From contig CAIPPO010000185.1 in NCBI GenBank assembly GCA_903866915.1, positions 1 through 49,740 of the forward strand: 49,740 nucleotides of DNA, given 5' to 3'. The translations under genes and the position numbers were made by a program. The notes under the pieces are model-generated. The model had not been told where the DNA came from, ran no database searches, and was given only the letters and a program-made list of their open reading frames with translations. Shown here in pieces: positions 1-18,573 of this stretch. Position 1 is the first letter of the stretch. Each line of letters begins with the position of its first letter. Source of the DNA: an uncultured Mucilaginibacter sp. (lineage in GTDB: Bacteria > Bacteroidota > Bacteroidia > Sphingobacteriales > Sphingobacteriaceae).

Positions 1-336
1 GCACAAAAACTGCACCAGATGGTTGCGCCCAAAGCTTTTCATCGATCGTTCAACCAGCGACCATGTTAAAAGGTGGGAATTGTTGTGTGCAACTGGCGTT
101 GTCCTTGCCCGGTTACCCGCAGGTTTTCCGCCCGGATTACCGGCAAAGAACGCAGCCGGTGGGTAATGATAGCCGCAGCTTTCAATCCTGTCGCATTTGC
201 CAACGTGGTCGGCAAGGTAGGCGCCTGTTTCAGAATCAATATATCGTTTGAAAGTATCGCGACGGTTTTTGCATTGGGGGCACATGTAACGGGTAGCGCT
301 ACCTTTATAAGGTTCGAGCATATAACGATGGTGCAT
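1..336 (-). CDS. DUF6371-type protein, N-terminal part (runs off left edge)
   Basis: Reading leftward from an ATG at 336, the frame stays open for 112 codons to the window edge, so only the N-terminus is present. It begins MHHRYMLEPYKGS and carries a zinc-ribbon-like set of cysteines at residues 19, 22, 48 and 54 (CPQC, then KC and SC). This opening resembles the DUF6371 proteins of Bacteroidota mobile elements, which I recall as having a primase-like zinc-binding N-terminus; that link is from memory. It follows the ATPase gene at 465-1514 on the same strand, with a dyad repeat between them. Overlapping open frames in this interval have unlikely protein sequence and are shadows. Confidence 0.72.
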   Translation of the reverse strand, partial: MHHRYMLEPYKGSATRYMCPQCKNRRDTFKRYIDSETGAYLADHVGKCDRIESCGYHYPPAAFFAGNPGGKPAGNRARTTPVAHNNSHLLTWSLVERSMKSFGRNHLVQFLC

Positions 337-404
337 GGTGAAATGAAAGGGTAATGTTGTTGAGATAGCAATTGAAAGGGTACAGGCAGGTTGTGGGTTT
401 GGGG

Positions 405-455
405 GTTCCTGTTCCTTCCGCTTTTGTGTTACACTAAACCGGAAGGAACAGGAAC
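405..455. repeat. Dyad repeat, copy 1 (perfect 16-bp inverted repeat)
   Basis: Arms at 405-420 and 440-455 are perfectly complementary over 16 bp with a 19-nt loop. Inside it, 416-448 reads TTCCGCTTTTGT, 8 nt, AAACCGGAAGGAA. The same arms recur inverted at 1665-1697. It begins 9 nt past the ATPase stop codon, so it could act as a hairpin terminator, an operator or an iteron-like protein-binding site. Confidence 0.75.
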
Positions 456-464
456 GCAGGCGGT

Positions 465-1514
465 TTATCTGGCAGCCTTCTTTATTAAACGGTCAACCTG
501 TTGAAACGACAGGCCAAACTTTGCGCCAATTTCTTTTAGGGTTAAACCCTCGGCACGCAGTTTTACAACTTCGTCCATATGGTCGTTTCCCTGGCCGTAT
601 TTGGCTTTACGCAGGTGATCGCCTTCAACACCAAATCCCTGAAATTCGTATTGTAAAAAGTTTAAAGGTTTATTAATACGGCAAATACAAACGTTGGTAC
701 TGCCATAAACCTGGTCAGTATTTCGTTGCTTTATTTGCTTCAGATAGCGCATGCCCTTGTCAATTACGCTCTCGCCGATAGCAAAAGCACTATCGCAAAA
801 ATTCATCAACATCTTACTGCCCTGCAGATCGTTGCGGTTAATTTCCAGCGTCATATCCCGTTTGGGCGTATGCGCCAGCGCCAGAATACTTAGGTTATAG
901 GTCTTTTTTAAAGCTTTAAGGTGCTTCATCAATGGCAGTGCATCTTTAGCACGCTCAGTCTCGTTGCGCAGGTAAGTAAGGTTATCAATAATAACAACCC
1001 TTGCGCCGGTTTGAACAATTGACTTTTCGAGTGAAGCGTTCAGGTAGTCGTCAAAATCTTTAAAGCCCGAAGGCAGGTCAATGCCCGGGTTCAATTCGGC
1101 GCGGTAAAAATTGTCTGTAAATTCGTAGTGATCCTGATATTCGACCGAATATCTGGCTTCAAATTGTTTCGAGGTCAATTCAAAGTCGCAATACAATACC
1201 GGTTGCGGTTCAGCCTCGCAAACAAAAGGCGATGCAGAATGGCCATTACTTATGGCGTTGGCAATTTGCACGGCAAGAATTGATTTACCGAGGTTACTAT
1301 CGGCAAACAGGATACAAAGTTCGGTCTCGAACCAAAATTTATCGAACAGCATTTTTGGCACTGCATGCCGGCTGGCTTCCCTGAGCCAACCATTGGCGGT
1401 GTTAACAGTAAACAGTTCTTCATCTTCTGCGGCAACCAGGCGTTCGCAGTAAGGTGGTAGTTGGGCTGAGTTGGAGTGAAACTGGTTCGTAGCCGATTGA
1501 TTAGGTTGTAGCAT
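465..1514 (-). CDS. RepA-like AAA ATPase (AAA_25 type) with C-terminal HTH
   Basis: A 349-residue P-loop ATPase of the RepA/AAA_25 helicase-like group found in plasmids and integrative elements. The Walker A segment is near residues 71-78 (ADSNLGKS), with GKS intact but the first glycine of the canonical motif replaced. Walker B lies near 172-178 (RVVIIDN), followed by a LALAHT segment near 210-215. The last 35 residues look like a helix-turn-helix (GLTLKEIGAKFGLSFQQV), suggesting DNA binding. The neighbouring DUF6371 gene and flanking dyad repeats point to a replication or mobilisation module. The exact biochemical role is inferred; it could also be a DnaB-like accessory helicase. Confidence 0.75.
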   Translation of the reverse strand: MLQPNQSATNQFHSNSAQLPPYCERLVAAEDEELFTVNTANGWLREASRHAVPKMLFDKFWFETELCILFADSNLGKSILAVQIANAISNGHSASPFVCEAEPQPVLYCDFELTSKQFEARYSVEYQDHYEFTDNFYRAELNPGIDLPSGFKDFDDYLNASLEKSIVQTGARVVIIDNLTYLRNETERAKDALPLMKHLKALKKTYNLSILALAHTPKRDMTLEINRNDLQGSKMLMNFCDSAFAIGESVIDKGMRYLKQIKQRNTDQVYGSTNVCICRINKPLNFLQYEFQGFGVEGDHLRKAKYGQGNDHMDEVVKLRAEGLTLKEIGAKFGLSFQQVDRLIKKAAR

Positions 1515-1664
1515 ATTTTTGTTGATTAGGTTATTACAGGTTTAAAGGATCAGACCGATCCAATGCCTTTACTGATGTAAAGAAAATACCTCCCTATAGC
1601 CAATTATAGTATTGACTTTGATTGCGCTTGCAAAAGCGAACCTTTATAGACTATGTTTTGATTA

Positions 1665-1697
1665 TTCCTTCCGGTTTGGAATATAACAAAAGCGGAA
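1665..1697. repeat. Dyad repeat, copy 2 (inverted relative to copy 1)
   Basis: The plus strand reads TTCCTTCCGGTTT, 8 nt, ACAAAAGCGGAA. Its reverse complement matches copy 1 (416-448) at all 25 arm positions with the same 8-nt spacer length, while the spacer sequence differs (GTTACACT against TATATTCC). It lies in the divergent gap between the ATPase start (1514) and the small ORF at 1850, where a regulatory or replication protein could bind. Confidence 0.7.
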
Positions 1698-1849
1698 AAT
1701 GTGGAACTGGCGATAAAAATATCCGAGAGGGATAGTCAAATATAAAGATATCTATTTTATTTTAAAGAATATTCTTTGTTACTTTTTTTGAAAAGCCTGT
1801 TTATGAGGCAGATAATTTTTTCAAAATTTTATTTAAACCAACTAAACCG

Positions 1850-2054
1850 ATGCAATTACTTAGCTTACAAAAAACAATGATTTATGACTTAATAGTTAAA
1901 AAAGGATTTTCTCCAGCAAATTCGATTGGGCATCTTATTTTTTTTTTTTGGCGTTATCACGAATATCATTATTGCGTTATTTATCACTCCAGACAATGCT
2001 GAACACATTTGGGAAGCGGTAAAGCAAATGTTTACCGGCTTTTTATTGAAGTAA
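1850..2054 (+). pseudogene. Possible 67-residue single-pass membrane protein, frame broken in a 12-T run
   Basis: An ATG at 1850 opens a frame reading MQLLSLQKTMIYDLIVKKGF and onward, which enters a run of twelve T (1938-1949) and soon terminates. With eleven T the frame would continue as GVITNIIIALFITPDNAEHI to a TAA at 2052-2054. That gives a 67-residue protein with one membrane segment (about 28-46) and a short amphipathic tail. The clean join suggests a real gene with a one-base homopolymer difference: sequencing error, mutation, or slippage/phase variation. I do not recognise the family. A dyad repeat copy begins 3 nt past the stop. Confidence is modest because it is short. Confidence 0.4.
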
Positions 2055-2056
2055 TA

Positions 2057-2088
2057 TTCCGGAGTTTTCGCACAAAAAGCGGAAGGAA
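2057..2088. repeat. Dyad repeat, copy 3 (diverged)
   Basis: It reads TTCCGG, 16 nt ending in CAAAAA, GCGGAAGGAA, in the same orientation as copy 2 but with the inner gap one base shorter. It follows the possible small ORF by 2 nt, mirroring copy 1, which sits just past the ATPase stop. The core TTCCGG/GCGGAA half sites are kept; the centre is not. Confidence 0.5.
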
Positions 2089-2120
2089 GAAACAGGGGTA
2101 TTAGCTGGTGCGAAGCGCTA

Positions 2121-2190
2121 TTGCCTCCTTGCGATTGCCACGTCGGCTCCAATCCACACATCCAGCGCATGCTCCTCGCAAGGACAGGGT
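2121..2190. repeat. REP-like intergenic palindrome
   Basis: TCCTTGCGA (2126-2134) and its exact complement TCGCAAGGA (2176-2184) enclose 41 nt containing GATTGCCACGTCGG. This resembles the dispersed intergenic repeats built around TTGCGAGGA and GGCAATC that are common in Sphingobacteriaceae genomes (resemblance from memory). The short open frames crossing it are not convincing genes. Confidence 0.4.
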
Positions 2191-2280
2191 ATTACAAATT
2201 GCCATCCGGGCCATCCTTTAATCCGACGAATCGTGGTTCAGACCAAATTCTCCAATGCCAAATGACGCGCATCAAATGCC

Positions 2281-2850
2281 CTAATGACTCATTGACTCAA
2301 CTGTTTCCTCCAACTCCTTATACCATTCAACCCCATATTTGCGGATGAGCGGATCTTTGAGAAATTGGTGGACATGCACTTTCAGCTCGTCGCCGAAGGC
2401 GCAGGCGGGGCTGCAGATGTGCCAGCGGTCGTAGTTAAGCACATCAAACTCGGGGTATTTGGTGATGCGGATGGGGTATAGGTGGCATGAAATTGGTTTC
2501 TTCCAGTTAATAACACCTTGTTCCCAGGCTTTTTCGATGGCGCATTTGGTGATGCCATTCTCCCAGATTACATAAGCACATTCTTTATTGGTATCTACGC
2601 AGGGTGTGGTATAGTCGCCCTCAAAATCGGTTACATGGGTGCCTTGCTCCTCGATGGTGGCAATACCTTTCGGGGTCATAAAAGGTTTTACTTTAGGATA
2701 GATCTCATCCAGAATTGCCAGCTCATCATGATTTAGCGGCGCGCCCGAGTCGCCCTCAAGGCAGCAGGCCCCTTTGCACTTGTTGAGGTTACAAACAAAG
2801 TTTTCACGAACTACATCTTCGTGCACTAATACACTGCCTACTTCAATCAT
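2281..2850 (-). CDS. DUF3109 family cysteine-rich protein
   Basis: A 189-residue cytosolic protein rich in cysteines: C20, C25, C29 and C30 in a CNLNKCKGACC motif, then C84, C91, C103, C122, C146 and C150. The arrangement (KGACC near the N-terminus, SCHLYPIRI near 121-129, HICSPAC near 144-150) matches the DUF3109 family, which is related to the YkgJ-type zinc/iron-binding proteins. Length is typical. The cysteines probably bind a metal or Fe-S cluster; the substrate is unknown. The downstream region (lower coordinates) is the REP-like spacer, and upstream lies a perfect 18-bp palindrome shared with the DUF3108 gene. Confidence 0.85.
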   Translation of the reverse strand: MIEVGSVLVHEDVVRENFVCNLNKCKGACCLEGDSGAPLNHDELAILDEIYPKVKPFMTPKGIATIEEQGTHVTDFEGDYTTPCVDTNKECAYVIWENGITKCAIEKAWEQGVINWKKPISCHLYPIRITKYPEFDVLNYDRWHICSPACAFGDELKVHVHQFLKDPLIRKYGVEWYKELEETVESMSH

Positions 2851-2868
2851 TGACCGCTGATTTGTTTT

Positions 2869-2886
2869 TCCCGATAGCTATCGGGA
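2869..2886. repeat. Perfect 18-bp palindrome TCCCGATAGCTATCGGGA
   Basis: A perfect palindrome in the short gap between the DUF3109 and DUF3108 genes. A diverged relative, CCCGAT-GGGT-ATCGGG, occurs at 40975-40990. Because transcription is leftward from the DUF3108 gene (stop at 2942), it could act as an intrinsic hairpin, but the minus strand has no T-run beyond it. Confidence 0.7.
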
Positions 2887-17983: not shown

Positions 17984-18226
17984 ATGGAATTTATTCGTTT
18001 TCTATTCATAGCGATACTTGTCTTATATATTATTCGCGCCGCGGTGCGCCTTTTGCTACCCATGTTGTTTCAAAGCGTAATGAATAAGGCTCAGGATGCC
18101 CAGCAACAGCAATACCGCCACAATGCTCCGGAAGGAAAAGTAAGTGTCGATTTCGTTCCGGAAAAAAAGAAAAAATCAATACCTGATTCCGAAGGCGACT
18201 TCGTGGATTACGAAGATTTAAAATAG
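17984..18226 (+). CDS. DUF4834 family small membrane protein
   Basis: An 80-residue protein with one N-terminal membrane helix (about residues 5-30, FLFIAILVLYIIRAAVRLLL) and a charged cytosolic tail. The tail holds a glutamine-rich stretch (AQQQQ), KVSVDFVPEKKKK and the acidic end DFVDYEDL, which match the Bacteroidota DUF4834 family. No function is known. The next gene starts one base after this stop, so they are surely co-transcribed. Confidence 0.78.
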   Translation: MEFIRFLFIAILVLYIIRAAVRLLLPMLFQSVMNKAQDAQQQQYRHNAPEGKVSVDFVPEKKKKSIPDSEGDFVDYEDLK

Positions 18227-18227
18227 T

Positions 18228-18512
18228 ATGCGAGACCCGCTGGAAAGACCTCCAATTTTTACGCGTCGCCACTACGGCACGCCCGAAACTTTCAACCTGA
18301 TCGTAATTAACTATGCTGTGGTGGCCTTCGGCCTGATGGCATTCAGCACATCAAATCATAAGATCTACTGGTTTTTTTGGGTAGTTTTGGGGGTGTTAGC
18401 CCTCTATAATGCGTTCAATATCTACCGATACCGTGAAGAGTATAACAAAATAGCCATCATCGCTTATGTCATCAGCGTAGCGGGAATGAGTCTGTTATTT
18501 TTAATAGTCTGA
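18228..18512 (+). CDS. Unknown small membrane protein, three helices
   Basis: A 94-residue protein that I do not recognise. A soluble N-terminus (MRDPLERPPIFTRRHYGTPE) precedes three hydrophobic helices at about 23-40, 47-64 and 74-93. The YRYREEY segment forms the charged loop between helices two and three. It begins one base after the DUF4834 stop and precedes the YfhO-like gene by about 100 nt, where a separate -7 box lies. It may be a partner of DUF4834 in the membrane; this is inferred only from spacing. Confidence 0.65.
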   Translation: MRDPLERPPIFTRRHYGTPETFNLIVINYAVVAFGLMAFSTSNHKIYWFFWVVLGVLALYNAFNIYRYREEYNKIAIIAYVISVAGMSLLFLIV

Positions 18513-18573
18513 CCCATAAGCGCATCATTTCAACTGCCGAACAAAAATAAATTTCTATTCTAACTCAAATTTC

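Follow-up and report, generated by a model that had tools for sequence, protein, structure and literature searches.

What reads the dyad-symmetric sites that surround the gene for a RepA-like ATPase at the left end of a Mucilaginibacter contig, and what would such a reader do there? The window analysed here is the entire contig C185, 49,740 bases in length, from a 3.75-Mb assembly of 237 contigs. An initial annotation had noted three copies of an inverted site around the ATPase gene and had offered two readings of their fixed arms and variable centres, namely a protein dimer site, with the helix-turn-helix (HTH) domain of the ATPase as the suspected reader, or a recombination core. We favor, with a probability of about 60%, the interpretation that the dyads are inverted iterons read by the helicase itself, which would form the origin-like site of a helicase-primase module. 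This module is also found in Tn4555-type elements. A search of titles and abstract openings in the openly accessible literature returned no paper on this dyad site; DUF6371 itself is mentioned in one paper of that literature.

The module and its dyads

The identification of the gene at 465-1514 (minus strand, 349 aa) as a RepA-like ATPase is borne out by Pfam matches to AAA_25 (E 9e-19) and, at the C-terminus, to HTH_28. Pfam, the structure model and fold matches all point to a RecA-type helicase core followed by an HTH, which in the model occupies residues 313-348 with the recognition helix at 337-348. The top fold match of the model (mean pLDDT 82) is the T7 gp4 helicase (6n9v_C, E 7e-11), with KaiC and DnaB close behind. 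On the same strand, at positions 1-336 (start <1), lie the N-terminal 112 aa of a DUF6371 protein with a zinc ribbon (PF21957), cut by the left edge of the contig. The order, ATPase then DUF6371, is that seen in Tn4555-type elements. A model of the DUF6371 orthologue from genome G300 (pLDDT 88) has the T7 gp4 primase fragment 1nui as its top fold match (E 4e-4), followed by DnaG cores; the leading matches are primases or primase-helicases, at modest TM values of 0.3-0.4. PDB sequence searches yielded nothing of use. On the strength of these models, the ATPase and the DUF6371 protein resemble a gp4-like helicase-primase that has been divided between two genes, with predicted helicase and primase activities and a predicted hexameric state.

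The remainder of the DUF6371 gene, followed by a 148-aa ORF and gmd, is found at the end of contig C87 (locus L157), the last part of which (about 19697-19996 of L157) overlaps window positions 1-300 over ~300 bases with several mismatches. As this overlap is near-identical and not identical, it suggests either that strains differ here or that the DUF6371 gene is present twice. An ORF of ~148 aa follows DUF6371 in five loci (for example, L157 18570-19016, L082 5799-6248 and L154 503-931), and it is the only further gene shared beside the ATPase/DUF6371 pair (5 of the 51 loci clustered); the L082 copy, run against Pfam, NCBIfam and PHROG, had no match in any of the three. To the right, the module is flanked by a chromosomal DUF3109 gene (2281-2850, minus strand), which adjoins gmd in relatives that have no module at this place. 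In G249 the two genes are 235 bp apart with no module in the gap, and relative to this empty site the module of the window is an insertion. No target duplication is readable at its ends in the comparison with G249 because other repeats fill both flanks. One of the repeats seen there is a second palindrome, CCCGATAGCTATCGGG, within a TCTGAACC...GGTTCAGA element (window 2868-2885; L157 about 18150-18570); repeats of this type, along with a GTCATTGCGAGG-like repeat, lie on both sides of the module and also fill the empty site of G249.

Copy 1 of the dyad, presumed to be the main inverted-iteron site, occupies the gap between the ATPase and DUF6371 genes, 9 nt beyond the ATPase stop codon as originally described. 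The site is real, but the extent first assigned to it (416-448) was too short: two 25-nt arms, 405-429 and 431-455, are 92% complementary and make one long dyad (405-455, core 412-448) with a palindrome score of 18, against a maximum of 6 among 30 base shuffles. Copy 2 (1665-1697) sits between divergent frames, ~150 bp upstream of where the ATPase gene starts, with its core in the orientation opposite to that of copy 1. The description of these two as an inverted pair holds, as 33 nt align at 85% with 12+13 identical arm bases and two different 8-nt centres. Copy 3 (2057-2088), at the outer edge of the module beside chromosomal DNA and 2 nt beyond a TAA at 2052-2054, is likewise confirmed as a diverged dyad; it has the orientation of copy 2, and the 14 nt of its right arm (2075-2088) repeat 412-425 exactly in inverse orientation. 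None of the three is assigned a strand. Between copies 2 and 3 there is a small frame (1850-2054, plus strand) that a run of 12 T (1938-1949) interrupts; its halves would give one membrane-like peptide if the run were shifted, and to judge from its sequence it may be phase-variable or reflect an assembly slip.

Exact TTCCTTCCGSTTT arms occur four times in the window, every one of them inside copies 1-3. The genome search for the arm that the initial annotation had advised, carried out like all our genome-wide copy counts as a pattern search, recovered only two exact single arms elsewhere in the assembly and no further dyad in this genome (G000), so that the window word does not have the many dispersed copies of REP/RAYT systems. 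This word, TTCCTTCCG, forms a class of one, together with the copy of the module in G300.

A constant place with changing words

Among the matches listed, the closest relatives of the window ATPase are from Mucilaginibacter. ATPase homologues are present in 42 of 100 related genomes, and of 149 genomes from the genus, 35 encode DUF6371 (PF19898). Across relatives the dyad in the gap keeps its place and not its sequence. When a dyad is counted if it scores at least 9 and lies within -12 to +110 of a stop codon, 25 of 34 Mucilaginibacter modules have one beside the ATPase stop, versus 56 of 367 other ORF stops (p 2e-12). A phylum-wide scan, restricted to the best 80 of 338 ATPase relatives and reduced to 51 loci by dropping 29 that were from Mucilaginibacter or already seen, gave 46 of 51 loci versus 66 of 405 other ORF ends (p 2e-26); the background rate at other ORF ends is thus 15-16% in both sets. 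Wherever the gap dyad is found it lies between the ATPase and DUF6371 genes, both of which keep one orientation. Its words include GTCCGTCCG, GTTCGTTCG, TTAGAAACA and others in Mucilaginibacter relatives, and TGTAACA, TGTTCAC, CGTAC, TGTCCCA and TTTCA in the arrays of the wider Bacteroidota, where the repeat spacing, by eye, is mostly 8-10 bp. TGTAACA arrays often have their first repeat overlapping the ATPase stop codon (negative offsets), and in 10 of 11 genomes they are confined to a single place, the eleventh having two that are 3.7 kb apart.

No dyad satisfied the above rule in 9 of the 34 Mucilaginibacter modules and 5 of the 51 other loci (again from the best 80 of 338 relatives). A looser look at the nine dyad-less modules, covering all except L177 and L191, revealed GTCCG dyads around L175, L187 and L189 and, in L083, only one dyad, 694 nt past the stop; L184, L185 and L186 had none.

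In the wider family (the same 51 loci from the best 80 of 338 relatives) a gene of an HTH_17 cluster precedes the pair in 32/51, a tyrosine integrase is found in 30/51 by cluster and in 23/51 by direct search, and mnmE is within range in 14/51; the names of all three clusters are each taken from one representative. As the pair follows an HTH_17 gene and a tyrosine integrase, with mnmE in 14 of the loci, its setting in the wider family is, by gene content, that of an integrative element. A circular Bacteroides fragilis record of 10,057 bp encodes an excisionase, the ATPase, DUF6371, a mobilization protein and an integrase, in agreement with the gene list given for Tn4555 in the accessible part of PMC13183296. 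It carries a TGTCCCA array at the 3' end of the ATPase gene, paired with a GKSTVNR helix, and its circular 10-kb form is suggestive, though only suggestive, of an origin acting in cis.

Co-variation of the site with the ATPase HTH

A clue to the reader of these sites is that their sequence changes along with the HTH of the adjoining ATPase. Within Mucilaginibacter we compared 24 elements with a dyad score of at least 9, after setting aside the near-duplicates L089 and L183 and excluding L177 by name. Distances between dyads are correlated with those between HTHs (r 0.695), and in partial Mantel tests the dyad-HTH association given the core is 0.488 (p 0.0001) against 0.138 (p 0.11) for the core given the HTH. 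An independent set of 36 non-Mucilaginibacter loci, drawn from the best 80 of 338 relatives with a 90% identity filter, yielded 0.545 (p 0.0001) for the HTH and -0.036 (p 0.71) for the core; in both sets the permutations control for distance in the ATPase core and in part for phylogeny. When 341 columns of an alignment were scanned across 45 elements belonging to four large classes (17 elements of other classes lying outside the scan), window residues 339, 336, 324, 341, 340 and 335 ranked highest. All six are in the HTH and five of them are in or beside the modelled recognition helix; column means are 0.293 for the HTH versus 0.071 for the core (p 9e-9).

This relationship can be read out as a table of helices and words. 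In the 24-element set the helix QK[VA][DS]R goes with GTCCG arms in 14/14 cases, as against 0/10 for other helices. Counted with no redundancy filter, HMKV helices are paired with GTAAC (16/16), LGAVNK-type helices with GTTCA (8/8) and SEGxxRK helices with CGTAC (7/8). The AATVN group is mixed (TTTCA 2, GTTCA 1, other 1), and the word GTAAC is also common to some unlike helices. As expected of self-recognizing initiators, the repeats near the putative initiator gene match, by co-variation, the DNA-binding domain of its own product. Since the words of the site track this HTH, with no such co-variation for the remainder of the ATPase, the proposal of a protein dimer site read by the ATPase HTH is supported, and we infer from the sequences that the ATPase would physically bind its own dyads through this domain. 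In a single relative (L224, 4905-5969) the ATPase HTH weakly matches the CRISPR-repeat-binding protein Cbp1 (NCBIfam, E 8e-5, below the cut-off).

Binding, however, could serve regulation, and at the sequence level the co-variation fits an operator as well as it fits an origin. The ATPase might bind the dyads solely to control its own operon, with no part in starting replication, in which case the same co-variation would be expected; copies 2 and 3 are near the promoter and copy 1 precedes DUF6371. Sites with the element's own word are found up to 600 bp upstream of the ATPase gene in 21 of 24 Mucilaginibacter rows, copies 2 and 3 of the window being of this type, versus 5 of 46 elsewhere in the Bacteroidota. 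Yet the usual site of the wider family is at, or overlaps, the ATPase stop codon and not the promoter, and the restriction of TGTAACA to one array in 10 of 11 genomes also speaks against a purely regulatory site, which we regard as unlikely, though worth keeping in mind.

It is also conceivable that the dyads are REP-like palindromes that have gathered between genes by chance and have nothing to do with the ATPase. GTCC-type dyads, carried by 36 of the 149 Mucilaginibacter genomes, do turn up between chromosomal genes well away from any module (in G231, G252, G072 and G261), and are present in 19 of 114 genomes that have no PF19898. They are nevertheless more common alongside DUF6371 (17/35 genomes versus 19/114; odds ratio 4.7, p 3e-4, a count that includes the modules' own dyads), and the co-variation with the HTH also tells against chance gathering. 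The initial annotation had taken scatter of the motif away from such modules as evidence against its reading; this scatter is seen neither in the present genome nor for TGTAACA (11/11 genomes), but it does occur for the GTCC type in several Mucilaginibacter. We gave up a single-species REP as the main reading because the phylum-wide set has one array per genome and co-variation with the HTH, and overall we consider such an origin of the dyads very unlikely. A Y1 transposase as their mover was likewise rejected, because G231, with the most matches of a looser pattern (18), has no such enzyme, although Y1 is present in 133 of 149 genomes. ORF clustering of 51 loci uncovered no mobilizer shared beside dispersed dyads other than the ATPase and DUF6371 themselves. 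In several Mucilaginibacter species GTCC-type dyads recur in shared chromosomal neighbourhoods, near genes that we read, from their proteins, as pheT, radC and dnaE (L147, L151, L153, L158, L166, L167, L168, L169 and L172).

The recombination core of the initial annotation, in which a recombinase acting at the dyads would flip the segment with the ATPase gene or mobilize the whole module, is not supported, and we attach very little probability to it. In its favor the arms are conserved and the centres variable, the DUF3109-gmd gap of G249 has no module, and part of a dyad is indeed inverted between close relatives. The G300 module is 97.3% identical to that of the window and collinear with it, so that the inversion of 448-1665 suggested at first is not seen between them, but within copy 1 the innermost 25 nt differ from G300 at 6 positions when read forward and at only 2 when reversed. 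Another close pair, L079/L183, has the same centre in the same orientation, and therefore inversion of the centre is found in one of two close pairs. Hairpin formation or template switching on the palindrome would suffice to explain it. Against a recombinase, a single tyrosine integrase query found no relative in any of 36 sequences, the order and orientation of the genes are constant, the gap dyad stays internal to the module, and the site co-varies with the ATPase HTH. An integron-like cassette, with a dyad after each gene as in L082, was dropped because that query found no integrase and the sites track the ATPase HTH. Least probable of all, in our estimate, is an RNA element, that is, a terminator or attenuator hairpin between the ATPase and DUF6371 genes: the stop codon is followed by a 25-nt hairpin, but only 3 of 84 dyads have at least 5 T in the next 8 nt, no Rfam family comes near its gathering score, window 1-2300 holds about as many terminator-like sites as expected by chance (4 versus a mean of 2.6), and the co-varying partner is a DNA-binding helix.

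A candidate self-initiating helicase and its relatives

The self-read iterons that we favor suggest a mechanism. Each dyad would be an inverted array of short words bound by the C-terminal HTH of the adjoining ATPase, which together with the DUF6371 protein would constitute a split helicase-primase pair, and the array between the two genes would be the origin-like site. The hexameric helicase might recognize its own array through its HTHs, assemble there and open the DNA, whereupon the DUF6371 primase would lay the first primer and host enzymes would do the rest. Copies 2 and 3 would represent extra sites of the Mucilaginibacter branch, probably for self-regulation or as a second assembly point. 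The origin function of the array is an inference.

Several known systems share parts of this arrangement. The helicase of the P4 alpha protein belongs to SF3, and the primase of RSF1010 is of another type than the one predicted here. In P4 alpha, a single protein binds the origin repeats, unwinds the DNA and primes with a Toprim-type primase (PMC4234260, accessible part). Unlike P4 alpha, which has primase, helicase and origin binding in one chain, the module has two genes, one for a RecA-type (SF4-like) ATPase and another for the predicted primase. RSF1010 resembles it in that helicase (RepA) and primase (RepB') are separate, with small stem-loops at the origin (PMC4234260, same portion), but there a third protein, RepC, reads the iterons, whereas here the helicase itself carries the reading HTH. 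The plasmid pRN1 of Sulfolobus, as covered in that portion of PMC4234260, has an origin stem-loop directly 3' of its replication gene and a C-terminal winged helix; it differs in combining an archaeo-eukaryotic primase and an SF3 helicase in one protein and in having no iterons. A similar layout is that of SGI1, an element both integrative and mobilizable, whose putative iteron origin lies downstream of rep (PMC7433901, accessible part); its initiator has a RepA_C domain. REP/RAYT systems, with their GTAG/CGTC tags (PMC3733652, accessible part), resemble the dyads in having palindromes between genes, which in some Mucilaginibacter genomes are dispersed, but the Mucilaginibacter dyads do not need a Y1 transposase. 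By these analogies the module is likely to act like a P4 alpha or pRN1 initiator, laid out like the SGI1 origin, while being a member of none of these families.

The nearest relatives by gene content are Tn4555-type elements, for which the accessible part of PMC13183296 (2026) describes the block excisionase - AAA ATPase - DUF6371 and ascribes no role in replication to the ATPase/DUF6371 pair. They share these neighbors (also in CP103138.1) and an inverted array at the ATPase 3' end. They differ in having an integrase, an excisionase and a mobilization gene; neither integrase nor HTH_17 relatives were found in any of 36 sequences (35 Mucilaginibacter loci and the window), searched with one query each in loci that are cut at contig ends.

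We put forward, tentatively and at somewhat less than even odds, that these integrative elements represent a widespread Bacteroidota type of replicon whose replicative helicase, of RecA type (SF4-like), doubles as the initiator, its C-terminal HTH reading an inverted iteron array at the stop codon of the helicase gene with no separate initiator or loader. In its evolution the helix-iteron pair would have been switched repeatedly, and the Mucilaginibacter module would have shed the integrase while its sites spread in a REP-like manner. Given such switches in specificity, elements could share a cell with no incompatibility. DUF6371 and its partner ATPase, which many mobile elements of Bacteroidota carry, a resistance transposon among them, thereby gain a concrete candidate job and a testable cis-acting site. 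If the helicase-primase is indeed self-initiating, elements so far regarded as purely integrative would count as replicons, and the table of helices and iterons would amount to a natural specificity code that could predict which elements are compatible. From sequence matches, the cargo in two relatives looks like defence: one encodes GmrSD_N with a weak HEPN match and the other MrcB_N with HNH.
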